Source: Actinomycetes bacterium
GTDB lineage: Bacteria; Actinomycetota; Actinomycetes; Streptosporangiales; Streptosporangiaceae
Reading direction: 5' to 3'
Assembly: GCA_021793235.1 (NCBI GenBank)
Contig: JAJYTD010000001.1
Span: forward strand, 434,001 to 498,000
Length of the DNA stretch: 64,000 bases
The translations under genes and the position numbers were made by a program. The first letter of the stretch is position 1. The number at the start of each line of letters is the position of its first letter. Of this stretch, positions 5,317 to 44,928 are shown one piece after another. The notes under the pieces were generated by a model. It was given only the letters and a program-made list of their open reading frames with translations. It had not been told where the DNA came from and searched no databases.

Positions 5317-6354
5317 TCAGAACATCGAGATGTGCACGTGGTCGAAGTGGTTCTCGGTGATACTGCCCCGGTCGGCCATGTCCCGCCAGCCCTCGTCGCC
5401 GCGGCGGATGTCCCAGATCTTCTGCCGGTAGATGATGTACATGATGCCCAGCCGGTCGGCGTTCTCCTGCGCCCACTCGGAGATGGCGTAGCCGTGGTCG
5501 ATCTGGTCCTGCGAGGGCATCTGCCCGTTCTTGTCGACCATGAAGTCACACGCCCGGCCCTTGGGGTGCTCACCCACGATGTAGCCCCCCACGGGGCGGT
5601 AGCATCCGACGCCGCCGTGCTCTTTGTTCTCCCCGAACTTCTCGATGATGAGTTCCCGCATCTGCTCGGTTCGCGGGGTGAGGTTGTACTTACCGCCCAT
5701 CGTCTGCTCGGGGTAGTCGGCGATCAGCTCCTGGACCTCCTCCCGTTGCTCCTCGAGCTCATCCAGGTCCGCCTCCACTTCGGCGACCTTCTCGTCGGCA
5801 CTGGCCTGCGCCTTCTCGTCACGGGCGATGGCCTGCTCCAACTGCTCGACCTTGTCGTGGTTGGTGGTGGACAGGTGCGAGACGATCTGGGCCTGGTCAA
5901 TGATGTCCTGCGGCTCCTCCTCCACGAAGAGGGTCAGTGAGGGATCGACGCCGCCGCTGGTGTAGCTGGCGATCGCGAGCCGACGGACCTGCTCTTGTGC
6001 CTCGTCGACCTTCTCCTGCGTCTTCTCTGCGCGCTTCTCGGCTTTTTCCGCGTCCTCCATGACGCCTTCCATGTCGCGCAGTTCACCGTTGTACTCGCCG
6101 CTCAGCTTGTCGGCGCGGTCGCGAAGGGAGTCCAGGCTCTCCTCGGGTTCCATGGGAGGCATGGCGGCCGCCGCGGGCGAGGAAGCGGGCACTACGGTGC
6201 AGGCCGCCAGTAGAGCCGCAGCCAGTGCCGACGCCGGGCCGCGGCGGTGGATGGCACGGCAGAAGGCCGTGGCCGCGCTCCAGTACGGGCGTGGGGGATC
6301 GGGCGCCCAGAAATCAGCGAAGTCGTCCGCATCGGTTGATCGTTCGGGCTCCAC
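5317..6354 (-). CDS. Secreted coiled-coil protein with ARB_07466-like C-terminal domain
   Basis: The product is 345 residues from a GTG start (complement of 6352-6354) with GAGGAG 8 bases upstream. A signal peptide (Ala/Leu-rich, ending Ser-Ser-Pro-Ala-Ala-Ala-Ala) occupies about residues 38-65 after a long N-terminal lead. A Glu/Lys/Ala-rich coiled coil (residues ~75-210) resembles the helical region of NlpC/P60-type cell-wall proteins. The C-terminal ~115 residues carry Gly-Arg-Ala-Cys-Asp-Phe and the closing Asn-His-Phe-Asp-His-Val-His. This pattern matches the ARB_07466/VldE-like domain found in actinobacterial secreted proteins and is reminiscent of M15 peptidase metal sites. A role at the cell wall is inferred, and enzymatic activity is not shown. 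Confidence 0.8.
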   Translation of the reverse strand: MEPERSTDADDFADFWAPDPPRPYWSAATAFCRAIHRRGPASALAAALLAACTVVPASSPAAAAMPPMEPEESLDSLRDRADKLSGEYNGELRDMEGVMEDAEKAEKRAEKTQEKVDEAQEQVRRLAIASYTSGGVDPSLTLFVEEEPQDIIDQAQIVSHLSTTNHDKVEQLEQAIARDEKAQASADEKVAEVEADLDELEEQREEVQELIADYPEQTMGGKYNLTPRTEQMRELIIEKFGENKEHGGVGCYRPVGGYIVGEHPKGRACDFMVDKNGQMPSQDQIDHGYAISEWAQENADRLGIMYIIYRQKIWDIRRGDEGWRDMADRGSITENHFDHVHISMF

Positions 6355-6379
6355 GTAGGCCGCTCCTCGACTGGCGCGA

Positions 6380-6403
6380 GGGGCCCGCAGGAAGGCGGGC
6401 CCC
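6380..6403 (-). promoter_or_regulatory. 5'-leader hairpin of the secreted coiled-coil gene
   Basis: A perfect 9-bp GC stem (6380-6388 with 6395-6403) and a 6-base loop lie 25 bases upstream of the GTG start. It could influence translation or mRNA stability. I do not recognise a riboswitch class in it. Confidence 0.35.
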
Positions 6404-6705
6404 CGAACATGGGTCTGATGCTCAAGCGGCAGCGCGTTCTTCTTACCGCGCGCCGGGCCCGCGGGCAGGGGCGGGGAGATCCGGCCCCGTGCCGATCGCT
6501 TCATCCACGCACACGGGCCGCTGTCGAGTCTACGGCTCCCGGCAAGTATGGGGGCGGATGTCGCCATGAGAGTGTTTCTGACCAGGTGATCAACGCGGTC
6601 GTGCGGGGTGGGAGCGCGCGAACGCGCGAACGCCCGAATGTGATGTTGCTCTCAGTAGTCGTTCGGTCTTGGGTAACGGTTGAATTTCGTCCATGTGTCC
6701 GGGGA

Positions 6706-6734
6706 TTGACTTGTGTCTCAAGAGGGCGTTTTCT
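6706..6734 (+). promoter_or_regulatory. Candidate cebE promoter
   Basis: TTGACT at 6706-6711 is a good -35 box. A 17-base spacer leads to TTTTCT at 6729-6734, a weak -10. The CebR operator begins 3 bases later, so a bound repressor would cover the transcription start. Confidence 0.5.
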
Positions 6735-6736
6735 TT

Positions 6737-6750
6737 TGGGAGCGCTCCCA
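6737..6750. promoter_or_regulatory. CebR/CelR operator
   Basis: The site is the perfect 14-bp palindrome TGGGAGCGCTCCCA. It is identical to the operator known for CebR of Streptomyces and CelR of Thermobifida. It lies 59 bases upstream of the cebE start codon, directly after the candidate promoter, and the cognate LacI-family gene is the last gene of this locus. Cellobiose or cellotriose binding to CebR would release it. Confidence 0.93.
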
Positions 6751-6809
6751 AGCGTCGGGGGGAATGGGGCGTGTTCAGGCTGGATTTCCTTGATGTAAGG
6801 GGTCGCAAA

Positions 6810-8099
6810 ATGACTATGCGTATGCGCGGTGCCAGAGCGGCCGCCGCGTTGGTGGGTGGAGGAGCCCTGGTACTCGCCGCCACCGCGTGCGGCGGGGACG
6901 GCGGTTCCGGCGGTGACGTCGAGCTGGTGATCGACACCTTCGGCGTGATGGGCTATGACGAGCGCATCAAGCAGTTCGAGGAGGAGAACCCCGGCGTCAC
7001 CGTCGAGGAGCGCAACGTCACCGACGTCGCGGACTACACTCCCCAGCTTCAGCAGAACATCGCTGCGGGCAGCGGTGCGGGCGATGTGGTGGCCATCGAG
7101 GAGGCCAACATCGCGCAGTTCCTCGTCCAGGCCGACAAGTTCGCCGACCTGAACGAGTACGGCGGCGCGGACCTGAAGGACGACTTCCTCGAGTGGAAGT
7201 GGGAGCAGGGCACCACGCCCGACGGCGCGCTCATCGGGCTCGGCACCGACATCGGCGGCATGGGCATGTGCTACAACGTGCCCCTGTTCGAAGACGCCGG
7301 TCTGCCCACCGACCGCGAGGAGGTCGGCGAGCTCTGGCCGACCTGGGACGACTTCATCGAGACGGGCGAGGAGTTCATGGAGGCCGACACCGGTGCCTCC
7401 TTCGTCTCCACGATCCAGCCCTACTTCCGCGCGGTCACGGCCCAGGCCGGGGGCGAACCCTTCCAAGACACCGAGGGCAGCCTCGTGCTGGAGGAAAACG
7501 ACGCCACCCGCGATTCCTACGACACCGTCACCGACATGTCGGAGGCGGGCCTGTCCGCGAGCCTGCCGATCTGGTCGGACGAGTGGAACGCCGGTATTCA
7601 GAACAACACCTTCGCGACTCTGCCCTGCCCGGCCTGGATGCTCGGCCACATCGAGAGCACCGCGGGCGATGAGGGCCTGGGCCGCTGGGATGTCGCCGCT
7701 GTCCCCGGAGGCGGAGGCAACTGGGGCGGTTCCTTCCTCGCAGTGCCCGAGCAGAGCGAGCACCCCGAAGAGGCGGCCGAGCTCGCCAAGTTCCTGACCA
7801 GCCCCGAGGGGCAGCTCTCCGCGTGGAACGAGGCCAACACGCTGCCGTCCTCCCCGGAGGCGCTCGAAAGCCCTGACGTGACGGAGTTCACCCGCGAGTA
7901 CTTCAACGACCTGCCGGTCGGTGAGATCTACGCTCCGTCGGCCCTGGAACTGGAGCCTGTCTATTACGGACCGGACACCCAGAGCATCGACGACGCCTTC
8001 CGCGCCGCACTGGAGTCGGTCGAACAGGGCCAGGCGTCCCCCAAGGAAGGGTGGGACACCGCGGTCGAGGAGAGCAAGCGCGCGGTGGGCGAAGGCTGA
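6810..8099 (+). CDS. cebE: Cello-oligosaccharide ABC transporter, solute-binding lipoprotein
   Basis: The product is 429 residues. It has a signal peptide with a lipobox ending Ala-Ala-Thr-Ala-Cys at residues ~22-26, followed by a Gly/Ser linker and an extracytoplasmic binding protein of the MalE-like SBP_bac_1 family. It is exported, anchored to the membrane and delivers sugar to the CebFG permease. Cellobiose/cellotriose specificity is inferred from the CebR operator, the neighbouring GH1 beta-glucosidase and the gene order. The ATG at 6810 has AAGGGG 7 bases upstream. No ATPase gene is present in this locus; in streptomycetes the shared MsiK ATPase fills that role. Confidence 0.9.
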   Translation: MTMRMRGARAAAALVGGGALVLAATACGGDGGSGGDVELVIDTFGVMGYDERIKQFEEENPGVTVEERNVTDVADYTPQLQQNIAAGSGAGDVVAIEEANIAQFLVQADKFADLNEYGGADLKDDFLEWKWEQGTTPDGALIGLGTDIGGMGMCYNVPLFEDAGLPTDREEVGELWPTWDDFIETGEEFMEADTGASFVSTIQPYFRAVTAQAGGEPFQDTEGSLVLEENDATRDSYDTVTDMSEAGLSASLPIWSDEWNAGIQNNTFATLPCPAWMLGHIESTAGDEGLGRWDVAAVPGGGGNWGGSFLAVPEQSEHPEEAAELAKFLTSPEGQLSAWNEANTLPSSPEALESPDVTEFTREYFNDLPVGEIYAPSALELEPVYYGPDTQSIDDAFRAALESVEQGQASPKEGWDTAVEESKRAVGEG

Positions 8100-8114
8100 C
8101 CCCGCGCACGATCA

Positions 8115-40468: not shown

Positions 40469-42208
<1,740 letters not shown>

Positions 42209-42215
42209 CGCGCCG

Positions 42216-42256
42216 GCCGGGTGCGGTGCGGGGATTCTTGCGGCACCGCACCCGGC
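42216..42256 (+). terminator. aspS terminator
   Basis: A perfect 14-bp stem (42216-42229 with 42243-42256) with a 13-base loop starts 8 bases after the aspS stop. Confidence 0.75.
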
Positions 42257-42347
42257 GGTACCGGCAACGGGGGAACGGGAAGGCTTTTCCTCGACTGCTT
42301 TGCGCATTGGAGCGCTGTTCGGAAAGCCCTCGGAAAGGGTGCCGCCG

Positions 42348-42476
42348 CTATTTCTTGGCCGCGCCGCACCGCTGGCAGCAGATGTCTTCGCTGTCGGGGT
42401 TGCTGTGGCTGCAGAGCCTACAGGTCCAGCCGTCAACGATGGGTGATCTTCTGATCTTCCTGCCACTATGGATCAT
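42348..42476 (-). CDS. RanBP2-type zinc-ribbon microprotein, 42 residues
   Basis: This minus-strand frame starts at the ATG complementing 42474-42476, with GGGAG 5 bases upstream; an ATG four codons earlier (42488) is also in frame. A basic N-terminus is followed by Gly-Trp-Thr-Cys-Arg-Leu-Cys-Ser-His-Ser-Asn, then Cys-Cys-Gln-Arg-Cys-Gly. The spacing Trp-x-Cys-x2-Cys-x3-Asn-x(6-7)-Cys-x(2-3)-Cys matches the RanBP2-type zinc finger almost exactly. It is far below usual gene-calling length. It is convergent with aspS and divergent from the SpoIIE-type phosphatase gene. A nucleic-acid- or protein-binding role is inferred. Confidence 0.75.
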   Translation of the reverse strand: MIHSGRKIRRSPIVDGWTCRLCSHSNPDSEDICCQRCGAAKK

Positions 42477-42488
42477 TGATGCTCCCAT

Positions 42489-42882
42489 GACCGAATTTTA
42501 GTTCCGACTTTCCCGTGGGGCCATGGGCACCGGGTGGCACAGAACAGTCACAGCGGACGATTCTTCGGATGGATGATCTGTGGCATACCCTGGGAGCAGC
42601 CCTTTTGTGGCTGTGGCTTCCCGGTCACACCGGAGTAACGATTCCGCTGAACGGTGGTCAAGCCATGGCCCGAGCGGATTTCTATGTTTCTGCCACTTTT
42701 TGTGCCATTGGCATGGAATGTCTGCCGTGGGCGGAGGGGAAAAGCGGGGGTATGCGGGCGGCTGTGAACAGAACATCCTTCACCTGCCCGGACGAGCGAT
42801 CTCGTCGCTAAACTAAGGCGAACCGGATGACTACGGGGAGAGGCGCGCAAGCGCGAGTGGGCGTATCCGGGATGACACAGGG
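42489..42882. other. Intergenic region upstream of the SpoIIE-type phosphatase
   Basis: About 390 bases lie between the divergent zinc-ribbon gene and the phosphatase gene. The composition is lower in GC than coding DNA. A TAAACT -10-like hexamer occurs near 42810. No open frame with a ribosome-binding site and protein-like composition is seen. Confidence 0.4.
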
Positions 42883-44928
42883 ATGATCGATTACGTGAAC
42901 GGCATTACCGGCTCTTCTGATGGCTTCGCCGGTCCCTCAGCGGTACCCGACGGGTCCCGAGGCGACATCGGCGATCATGTCGGCACGGCGTTCGACCATG
43001 CGCCCTCCGCCATGATCACCACAGATGCAGAGGGCGGTATCCGGCTGATCAACCGTGCCTTTACCGAACTCACCGGGTACGCACACGCCGACGTCATCGG
43101 CCGCCCCTGGCCAGAGATACTGACCGCCGACGATCCGGCCGCGGGCCGATGGCTGCACCGTGCCGCGCTGGACGGCGGGCCGCTCGCACAGCACCCCCTG
43201 ACCGTGGCCGGGCGCGACCGCGAACCGCGCAACATAGCCGTCGAATCCCGGGTGCTGCCCGCGGGAGACGGTCAAGGCGGGCCAGGACTGGTGCTCCTGT
43301 TCCGCGATCCCACGCACGATGAGGAGGTCCTGCGCGGTATCACCGAGCTGCGCACCGAGAGCGCCGATACCGCCCTGTGGGTCCTCGATCTGAGCACCGG
43401 CCGCATCCGCGAGCTGTTCGGCCCTTCACCGCTGGGGCGGCTGCTCGCCGGAGACGCCCGCAACCTCGAGGAATGCCTGGCCAGGGTGCACCGCGATGAC
43501 ATCGCGCGCGTCCGCGACGCCATGGAGGCCGCCCACCAGGGACACGATTACGAACAGCGCTTCCGGGTCTTCGACCGCAACGGCGACGAGCGTTCGCTGC
43601 ACGCCCGCGCCCGCTTCATCGAGGGCGGTCGCCCCCGACTCGTCGGGGTCATCGACGATGTCACCGAGCACGTGCAGCTCATCCGCCGACTGGCCGATCG
43701 GCGTAGAATCGAGGCCGCTCAGGGCCGCCAGGTCACCGACCTGGCGGCGAAGCTCGTCTCGGCCACCACCGTCGACAAGGTCACGAGCCTGCTCACCGAG
43801 GAGTTCGTACCGATCTTCGGCGGGACCACCGCGAGCGTCCTTCTCGTCGAGGACGGCGTGCTGCGGGCCGCGCCCTCGACCATGGACAGGGCCGGCGCGA
43901 TGTCGATGATCGACGGCCACGACGCCGCCGATACCTCCTACCCGATGGGAGCGGTGGTCCAGGACCGCCAGCCCCGGTTCTTCGAGAGCCGCGCAGAACT
44001 CCTGGAGCGCTTCCCCGCGGCGGCGGAGATGCTGCACCACACCAGCGCCCAGTCCTGGGCGACCGTGCCGATCTTCGGCGACCGCCGCGTGGCGCAGGGC
44101 GTCTGGCAGGTCGCTTGGACCCAGCCGCACCACGCAACCCCCGACGAACGCGCCCTCTTCCTCACCCTCGCGGGGCTGGCCGGCCAGGCGCTGCAGCGGG
44201 TCCGTCGCCAGCAGGCGGAACTCCAATTCGTCGACGCCATGCAGCGGCGCATGCTGCCGCAGCAGATCCCCGAATTCGACGGCCTCGATACCGCGGTGCG
44301 CTATCTGCCCGCGCGTGCCGGGTGGCGGGTGTGCGGGGACTTCTACGACGTCATCCGACTGCCTGAGCGCCGGGTCGGCCTCGTCGTGGGCGATGTCCAA
44401 GGCCACGGTGTGGAGGCCGCGGCGGCCATGGGCCAGATCCGGGTGGCGTTTCGCGCCTATGCCACCAACCAGGTCGACCCCGGCGTCGTTCTGGCCGAGA
44501 CCAACCGGCTGCTCACCGAGACCGGTGAGATCGTCTTCGCCACCTGCGGCTACCTCGTCCTGGATCTCGACAGCGGAGAGATGCAGGCCGCGTGGGCCGG
44601 CCAGCCGCCCGCGATCATCGCCACATCGGGATCCTTCAGCGTGTGGGAGCCGGAGACCGGCCCGCCCGTGGGTGTCGAGGCCGACAGCAAGTACCCGGTG
44701 ACCACCCGCCGGATGCGTCCGGGCGACACCCTGCTCATGTGCTCGGACGGCCTGGTGGAGAGCGCCGGTGTCAGCATGGACGAAGGCTTGGAGCGCGTCG
44801 GTCGCGCACTGAGCGACATGGCCACCGATGTGCACGGCGCCGCCACATCCCTGGCCGACCTCGCCCCGGCCGGGCGTACCGACGACATCGCCATCCTCAT
44901 CGCCCGACTGACCCGGCCCGCTGCTTGA
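42883..44928 (+). CDS. PAS-PAS-GAF-SpoIIE (PP2C) phosphatase
   Basis: The product is 681 residues. A first PAS domain (residues ~35-145) has Phe-Asp-His-Ala-Pro-Ser-Ala-Met and Leu-Thr-Gly-Tyr. A second PAS-like domain (~160-270), a GAF domain (~285-430) and a C-terminal SpoIIE/PP2C domain (~445-680) follow. The phosphatase has Gln-Arg-Arg-Met-Leu-Pro, Val-Cys-Gly-Asp-Phe-Tyr-Asp-Val with the metal Asp, Gly-Asp-Val-Gln-Gly-His-Gly and Gly-Arg-Thr-Asp-Asp-Ile. Such proteins dephosphorylate anti-sigma-factor antagonists in streptomycetes. No anti-sigma partner is nearby. The start has only a weak ribosome-binding site; GTG 42895 is possible. Confidence 0.9.
   Translation: MIDYVNGITGSSDGFAGPSAVPDGSRGDIGDHVGTAFDHAPSAMITTDAEGGIRLINRAFTELTGYAHADVIGRPWPEILTADDPAAGRWLHRAALDGGPLAQHPLTVAGRDREPRNIAVESRVLPAGDGQGGPGLVLLFRDPTHDEEVLRGITELRTESADTALWVLDLSTGRIRELFGPSPLGRLLAGDARNLEECLARVHRDDIARVRDAMEAAHQGHDYEQRFRVFDRNGDERSLHARARFIEGGRPRLVGVIDDVTEHVQLIRRLADRRRIEAAQGRQVTDLAAKLVSATTVDKVTSLLTEEFVPIFGGTTASVLLVEDGVLRAAPSTMDRAGAMSMIDGHDAADTSYPMGAVVQDRQPRFFESRAELLERFPAAAEMLHHTSAQSWATVPIFGDRRVAQGVWQVAWTQPHHATPDERALFLTLAGLAGQALQRVRRQQAELQFVDAMQRRMLPQQIPEFDGLDTAVRYLPARAGWRVCGDFYDVIRLPERRVGLVVGDVQGHGVEAAAAMGQIRVAFRAYATNQVDPGVVLAETNRLLTETGEIVFATCGYLVLDLDSGEMQAAWAGQPPAIIATSGSFSVWEPETGPPVGVEADSKYPVTTRRMRPGDTLLMCSDGLVESAGVSMDEGLERVGRALSDMATDVHGAATSLADLAPAGRTDDIAILIARLTRPAA

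Follow-up and report, generated by a model that had tools for sequence, protein, structure and literature searches.

A conserved stand-alone zinc-finger microprotein of RanBP2-like kind in the aspS-SpoIIE gap of an actinomycete genome, with a predicted leaderless start

The RanBP2/NZF zinc fingers of eukaryotes (e.g. Nup153, Nup358, Trabid, TAB2, Npl4, ZRANB2, and RBM5) are modules of larger proteins and bind Ran-GDP, ubiquitin, or RNA. Their consensus is W-x-C-x(2-4)-C-x3-N-x6-C-x2-C, with which the ArnA and Nup153 alignments agree; RNA-binding members contact RNA through a basic/aromatic loop after the conserved Asn, and ubiquitin-binding NZF fingers carry Thr-Phe after the second Cys and have a hydrophobic residue inside the final Cys pair. 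The finger of ArnA from Sulfolobus acidocaldarius has been named RanBP2-type by its authors (PMC6509490, PMC12852372); an FHA domain follows it, connected by a linker that is disordered, and in a co-crystal it is bound to ArnB mostly by hydrophobic interactions, including those of the C-terminal hairpin, a contact described as rather weak (PMC12852372). Stand-alone zinc fingers of fewer than 70 aa have been reported in Haloferax volcanii, where deletion mutants of HVO_0758 and HVO_2753 show a swarming deficit; these archaeal proteins contain two C(P)XCG motifs and are not called RanBP2-type in the abstract of that report (PMC10716476). Single-domain zinc-finger micro-proteins of Haloferax are also the subject of PMC6562870, and motifs similar to RanBP2-type fingers are noted within YprA-family helicases (PMC12458937). 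Among the papers listed in a search of open-licence literature, none described a stand-alone RanBP2-type microprotein in bacteria.

Our analysis concerns a 64 kb stretch of an actinomycete genome (hereafter the window). A frame of 46 aa on the minus strand (42348-42488, stop codon included) lies there between two plus-strand genes, the convergent aspS, encoding aspartyl-tRNA synthetase (40469-42208), and a divergent gene encoding a 681-aa PAS-PAS-GAF-SpoIIE protein (PP2C-type phosphatase; 42883-44928), after which comes a gene for an MgsA-type AAA ATPase. The frame had been picked out in a sequence-only reading for its zinc-ribbon cysteines, and it proved to be present, conserved, and under selection; the length of 42 residues given to it then needs correction to 46, with the conserved start at the ATG at 42488. 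The predicted protein consists of a 20-residue N-terminal tail (42429-42488) followed by a zinc-finger core in codons 21-46 (42351-42428), W-T-C-R-L-C-S-H-S-N-P-D-S-E-D-I-C-C-Q-R-C-G-A-A-K-K, of the form W-x-C-x2-C-x3-N-x6-C-C-x2-C-G. A six-frame search of the window with the motif W-x-C-x(2-4)-C-x3-N-x(6-7)-C-x2-C gave this single hit, and 60 first-order Markov windows gave none.

Homologues were found in 35/341 same-family genomes belonging to five genera, 32 of them kept at E <= 0.001 in a single-sequence search of all 341 and three divergent orthologues (L089, L092, and L093; E <= 2e-8) kept from a profile re-search of 25 genomes. At E <= 1 the re-search gave matches in 20 of these 25 genomes, and only those three sit at the aspS/SpoIIE site; the remaining profile matches (E 0.0276-0.95) fall elsewhere in the genomes, several with an internal stop, and were taken as chance. 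A search of 60 genomes gave matches in 21 at E <= 0.1, of which we retained that of the window itself and two more (E <= 1.8e-12), and the window's own genome holds a single clear copy, with five further matches at E >= 0.2. In genus g76 the gene is present in 25 of the 40 genomes identifiable by handle. Across a class-wide draw of 394 genomes, 12 of the 14 matches at E <= 0.001 came from the same family, the other two being parts of much longer frames (318 and 980 residues), and all 22 named loci with the gene belong to Nocardiopsis or Streptomonospora. Phage or plasmid cargo was considered and rejected, as tblastn found nothing at E <= 0.01 among plasmid/phage records and a pattern search nothing in viral contigs.

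Conservation was assessed on 31 distinct coding sequences extracted from loci L030-L091 with a DNA pattern that requires W21, C23, C26, and N30 and begins each sequence 20 codons before W21. In all counts from this set, these residues and the length of the tail are therefore fixed by construction, whereas C37, C38, C41, E34, and the ATG are free. Each of L030-L088 holds one of the 31 sequences and L089-L091 hold none, L089 being a divergent orthologue and L090 and L091 other proteins. Counted from the Trp codon, the stop lies at the same distance in 31/31 sequences and an ATG exactly 20 codons ahead in 28/31. Over all pairs, pN/pS is 0.27 in the core and 1.08 in the drifting tail, both values being rough as synonymous sites are partly saturated; between the window and L031, for example, the core has a pS of 0.57 and a pN of 0.03. 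As judged from these substitution patterns, the finger is under purifying selection. In an alignment of 15 members picked by hand for diversity, the three divergent syntenic ones included, W21, C23, L25, C26, N30, C38, C41, and G42 are invariant; a lack of cysteine conservation in syntenic relatives had been named beforehand as evidence against the gene, and all four of C23, C26, C38, and C41 are retained. The pair C37 and C38 is invariant in the 31 main-type sequences. The frame is short and no NCBIfam model matched it, as might be expected of an open frame arising by chance, but its conservation, selection, and start signals rule out such an origin, whose probability we put at practically nil, and comparative sequence evidence makes the 46-residue frame almost certainly a genuine zinc-finger gene.

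Assignment to the RanBP2 kind is supported but is not formal. The window protein reached no Pfam or NCBIfam threshold and PF00641 was not listed for it at E <= 10; neither it nor the 12 scanned members nor the one divergent orthologue scanned (of three; no PF00641 match at E <= 1) attained the curated PF00641 cut-off of 27 bits. PF00641 matched 5/12 members at E <= 10 (best E 0.01), zf-Sec23_Sec24 8/12, and Vps36-NZF-N 7/12, all with weak E-values, and the lowest single Pfam E-value (0.0041) came from the generic Zn_ribbon_3, which matched 6/12. On the other hand, a 15-member profile searched against PDB sequences placed ArnA first (E 6.1e-5), followed by rubredoxins from 0.0021 and Nup153 at 0.013, making ArnA the best solved match to the family. 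A modest AlphaFold2 model (mean pLDDT 69.2, core blocks 79-87) suggests a RanBP2-like fold of two crossed hairpins, and the top 21 rows returned for it by Foldseek are all RanBP2/NZF-kind fingers by title (Nup153, Nup358, MDM2, Trabid, ZRANB2, and ArnA, MDM2 being counted on the zf-RanBP title of Mdm4), with none at E <= 0.001 (best E 0.71); VIA-align gave a best Z of 4.3 (38 residues, 1.9 A). Sequence comparison suggests that a single Zn(II) would be held by C23, C26, C38, and C41. What had been described as a nearly exact RanBP2 pattern thus holds as a zinc-ribbon likeness, backed by the ArnA profile match, the homologues, and selection and less firmly by the predicted fold, but not in its last spacing. 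The 15 aligned members otherwise keep the consensus spacing; in the 46-aa type the last one is a residue longer with an extra Cys, reading N-x7-C-x2-C (or N-x6-C-x3-C). The exact N-x6-C-x2-C spacing is restricted to the three divergent orthologues, and because these lack C37, C38 and C41 rather than C37 are the likely ligands. We therefore regard the protein as a variant of the RanBP2 kind outside formal PF00641.

Compared with the described systems, the microprotein shares with the N-terminal finger of ArnA the order W-x-C-x2-C-x3-N...C-x2-C-G-A-x-K and an acidic stretch after the Asn (N-D-D-D-A-L-F-C in ArnA); it differs in standing alone and in its N-x7-C-x2-C spacing with the extra Cys, whereas ArnA has N-x6-C-x2-C. 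With the eukaryotic fingers it has in common the ligand order and the predicted fold but not the setting within a larger protein, and with the two Haloferax proteins the small stand-alone format.

The start codon and its upstream region proved informative. Codon 1 is ATG in 28/31 sequences, the other three having an ATG one to four codons further in, whereas codon 5, from which the 42-residue version would start and which has a GGGAG 5 nt upstream, is ATG in only 5/31. The start proposed earlier, with its GGGAG ribosome-binding site, is therefore not conserved and was ruled out; the conserved upstream element in the window's group is instead TAAAAT at -12 to -7 of codon 1 (42495-42500, minus strand), a -10-like hexamer. 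The box TA(A/C)AAT (TAAAAT or TACAAT) stands exactly at this position, without a Shine-Dalgarno-like word, in 10/31 sequences (the window, six of genus g30, locus L038, and two of g21), and the remaining 21 have a Shine-Dalgarno-like word and no such box, so that none of the 31 has both. Within the window, only 1 of 1396 ATGs, the microprotein's own, is preceded by TA(A/C)AAT at -12 to -7, and a Shine-Dalgarno-like word precedes 163/1395 ATGs. Among the eight closest loci, positions -28 to -1 (42489-42516) show a mean majority fraction of 0.87 against 0.60-0.61 in the preceding 92 bases. A block resembling GAAAAGTCCGG (42501-42516, minus strand), conserved in these eight loci, adjoins the -10-like box and is a possible operator. 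In leaderless genes a -10 hexamer abuts the start codon and no Shine-Dalgarno word is present, the arrangement found here in 10/31 sequences including the window's, and leaderless genes with the same geometry have been described in mycobacteria (PMC4633059). Transcription of the window gene as a leaderless mRNA is accordingly a prediction from its upstream sequence. By pattern, the interval 42100-42900 contains no sigma-70 -35/-10 pair, the -10-like box having no recognised -35, and no canonical terminator. A strong G+C-rich hairpin (42217-42255) occupies the gap in which aspS and the microprotein gene converge (fold of 42210-42347, z -3.09); as it lacks a T-run, it is not a canonical terminator by pattern. 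Rfam matched no known structured RNA in 42000-43000.

The place of the gene is largely conserved. In 30/30 loci (L030-L059) a divergent SpoIIE gene is found no more than 1.5 kb away, with an aspS match in 23/30, and both neighbors flank the gene in all three divergent loci; in the 22 longer named loci, which overlap with these sets, SpoIIE and mgsA were found in 22/22 and a convergent aspS in 20/22, the exceptions being L066, where the contig ends, and L079. The distance to aspS is below 400 bases in 17 of these 20 loci and about 2 kb in three from Nocardiopsis (L072, L073, and L077), where about 2 kb of extra DNA, at about 6100-8100, separates the microprotein gene from the aspS match. In L063 (6370-8091, minus strand) and other Nocardiopsis loci, the aspS site holds one of two kinds of AspRS, in some genomes about 70-90% identical to the window's and in others about 39-46%; that of L063 and the window's both pass bacterial equivalog models, and at the sequence level this looks like AspRS replacement in place. 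The microprotein gene itself is missing from 15/40 genomes of g76 and from the 5/5 tested of g9, with the neighbors retained: SpoIIE, with mgsA beside it, persists in 20/20 of these genomes, and aspS was found in the stretch of flank covered in 15/20; G149, taken as lacking the gene, is only 85% complete. Upstream of SpoIIE in the 20 genomes there was no microprotein-like frame, two unrelated four-Cys frames (L123 and L134) aside. A quick SpoIIE tree of 54 rows, with 15 of its 51 inner branches open, implies at least nine presence/absence changes, or four if the starred branches alone are trusted. The function of the microprotein must therefore be dispensable.

Taken together, the best explanation, to which we give an even chance, is a conserved stand-alone single-domain finger microprotein of the RanBP2 kind that is leaderless here and docks onto proteins. 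In such a scheme, the window's genome would transcribe the gene without a leader from a dedicated promoter, zinc would fold the last 26 residues, and the drifting tail would probably be disordered. The finger would then dock onto a protein partner, probably via its second hairpin, as the ArnA finger does on ArnB, and, having no second domain, it would serve as a small adaptor or block a contact between other proteins. Protein docking is our best guess because the loop is acidic, the ubiquitin-contact residues are absent, and in ArnA, the closest relative of known structure, the finger docks onto another protein; by this analogy, protein binding is a job for which we see the chances as balanced.

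Of the two ligands that the sequence-only reading named for eukaryotic fingers, neither RNA nor ubiquitin finds support in the residues. Where a ubiquitin-binding NZF finger has its contact residues, the microprotein has [S/T/E/N]-[H/Y] behind C26, and its last two Cys, C38 and C41, enclose Q-[R/Q/H] or L-Q. A finger like those of ZRANB2, RBM5, or FUS, binding single-stranded RNA and working in trans on mRNAs, would agree with the RanBP2-like fold, with the presence of ZRANB2 and FUS fingers among the structure matches, and with the terminal C-x-x-C-G-A common to the RBM5 finger (C-F-R-C-G-A). However, the loop after the Asn, which is basic in RBM5 (F-R-K-R-L-K-C), reads P-D-x-E-D in the microprotein, with D/E at 32 and E34 in 31/31 sequences and D35 in 28/31, and the net charge of the core ranges from -2 to +1 across the 31; on this argument, drawn from residues and one relative, we consider RNA binding unlikely. 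We judge equally unlikely a redox- or zinc-responsive switch in which C37, beside the ligand C38, would form a disulfide or swap as ligand, thereby releasing zinc and changing activity. The invariance of C37 and C38 in the main type and the existence of a redox-regulated small mycobacterial protein, Ruc (PMC7448276), are in line with such a switch, but the divergent orthologues do without C37 and there is merely the 20-residue drifting tail beyond the finger.

The genomic context raises two further readings. The adjacency counted above for the overlapping sets of 30, three, and 22 loci might suggest a dedicated partner or regulator of the PAS-GAF-SpoIIE phosphatase, yet a shared gap alone can hold divergent genes together, and the repeated gain or loss of the microprotein gene while SpoIIE and mgsA stay argues against an obligate partnership, leaving this reading a little less probable than RNA binding or a redox switch. 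Cysteine-rich upstream open reading frames have been proposed as attenuators in mycobacteria (PMC4633059), and a leaderless-type start with a C-C pair would fit a leader frame of this sort, acting in cis instead of as a trans-acting protein; what lies downstream, however, is the convergent aspS, in the window as in 20/22 named loci, with no gene on the same strand, and W, L, N, and G are as conserved as the cysteines, so that an attenuator was ruled out with only the faintest probability left to it. The protein-docking finger remains the explanation that we favor.

It is of note that this protein is not the only stand-alone finger in its genome. A PF00641 search of 296 class genomes, in which 29 had matches at E <= 0.001 and none lay above the cut-off, led to a second RanBP2-type microprotein of about 41 aa (G000:C27:85650-85766; 1456-1581 on the plus strand of L141), with the finger W-E-C-S-R-C-G-Y-H-N-E-D-F-R-T-K-C-R-I-C-G. 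A search of 338 family genomes gave matches in nine at E <= 0.001, the three strong ones (E <= 2.2e-12) being in the window's genome (L141/L156), G175, and G176, represented by these loci together with L155 and L157. Like the window protein, it is a stand-alone C-terminal finger, and in the window's genome its ATG is preceded by a -10-like box at -12 to -7, TAAGAT. Unlike the window protein, it lies at another site, following sufS-, sufU-, and MIP18-like frames in the window's genome and G175 (2/3; names by reading), its stop overlaps the next start codon in 3/3 genomes, and it has the exact RanBP2 spacing in 2/3 copies, Ser replacing Asn in that of G176 (L157). The PF00641 cut-off of 27 is passed by the G175 copy (27.3) and just missed by that of the window's genome (26.9). 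Fingers of the RanBP2 type are also present, singly or in pairs, at the N terminus of longer frames in L151 (G137), L162 (G020), and L110 (G133); in L151 and L110 a hydrophobic stretch comes after them and then a C-terminal part that looks similar by eye.

We tentatively propose, at somewhat less than an even chance for the two parts jointly, that Nocardiopsis, Streptomonospora, and their relatives have at least two families of stand-alone RanBP2-like microproteins working as carrier-free ArnA-like docking modules, as bacterial adaptors or blockers, and that translation of the window's family switched between leaderless and Shine-Dalgarno initiation among relatives at an unchanged start codon. 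If true, the switch would offer a natural experiment in initiation mode, as a single start codon that is leaderless-type in some genera and preceded by a Shine-Dalgarno word in others makes leaderless and leadered expression directly comparable. Genes of this type may be missed by automatic annotation, as they are short, lack a ribosome-binding site, and score under the Pfam and NCBIfam thresholds. RanBP2-type fingers are familiar mainly from eukaryotes, with ArnA providing a solved archaeal structure; a conserved stand-alone bacterial version would provide a minimal case for the function of the fold itself.
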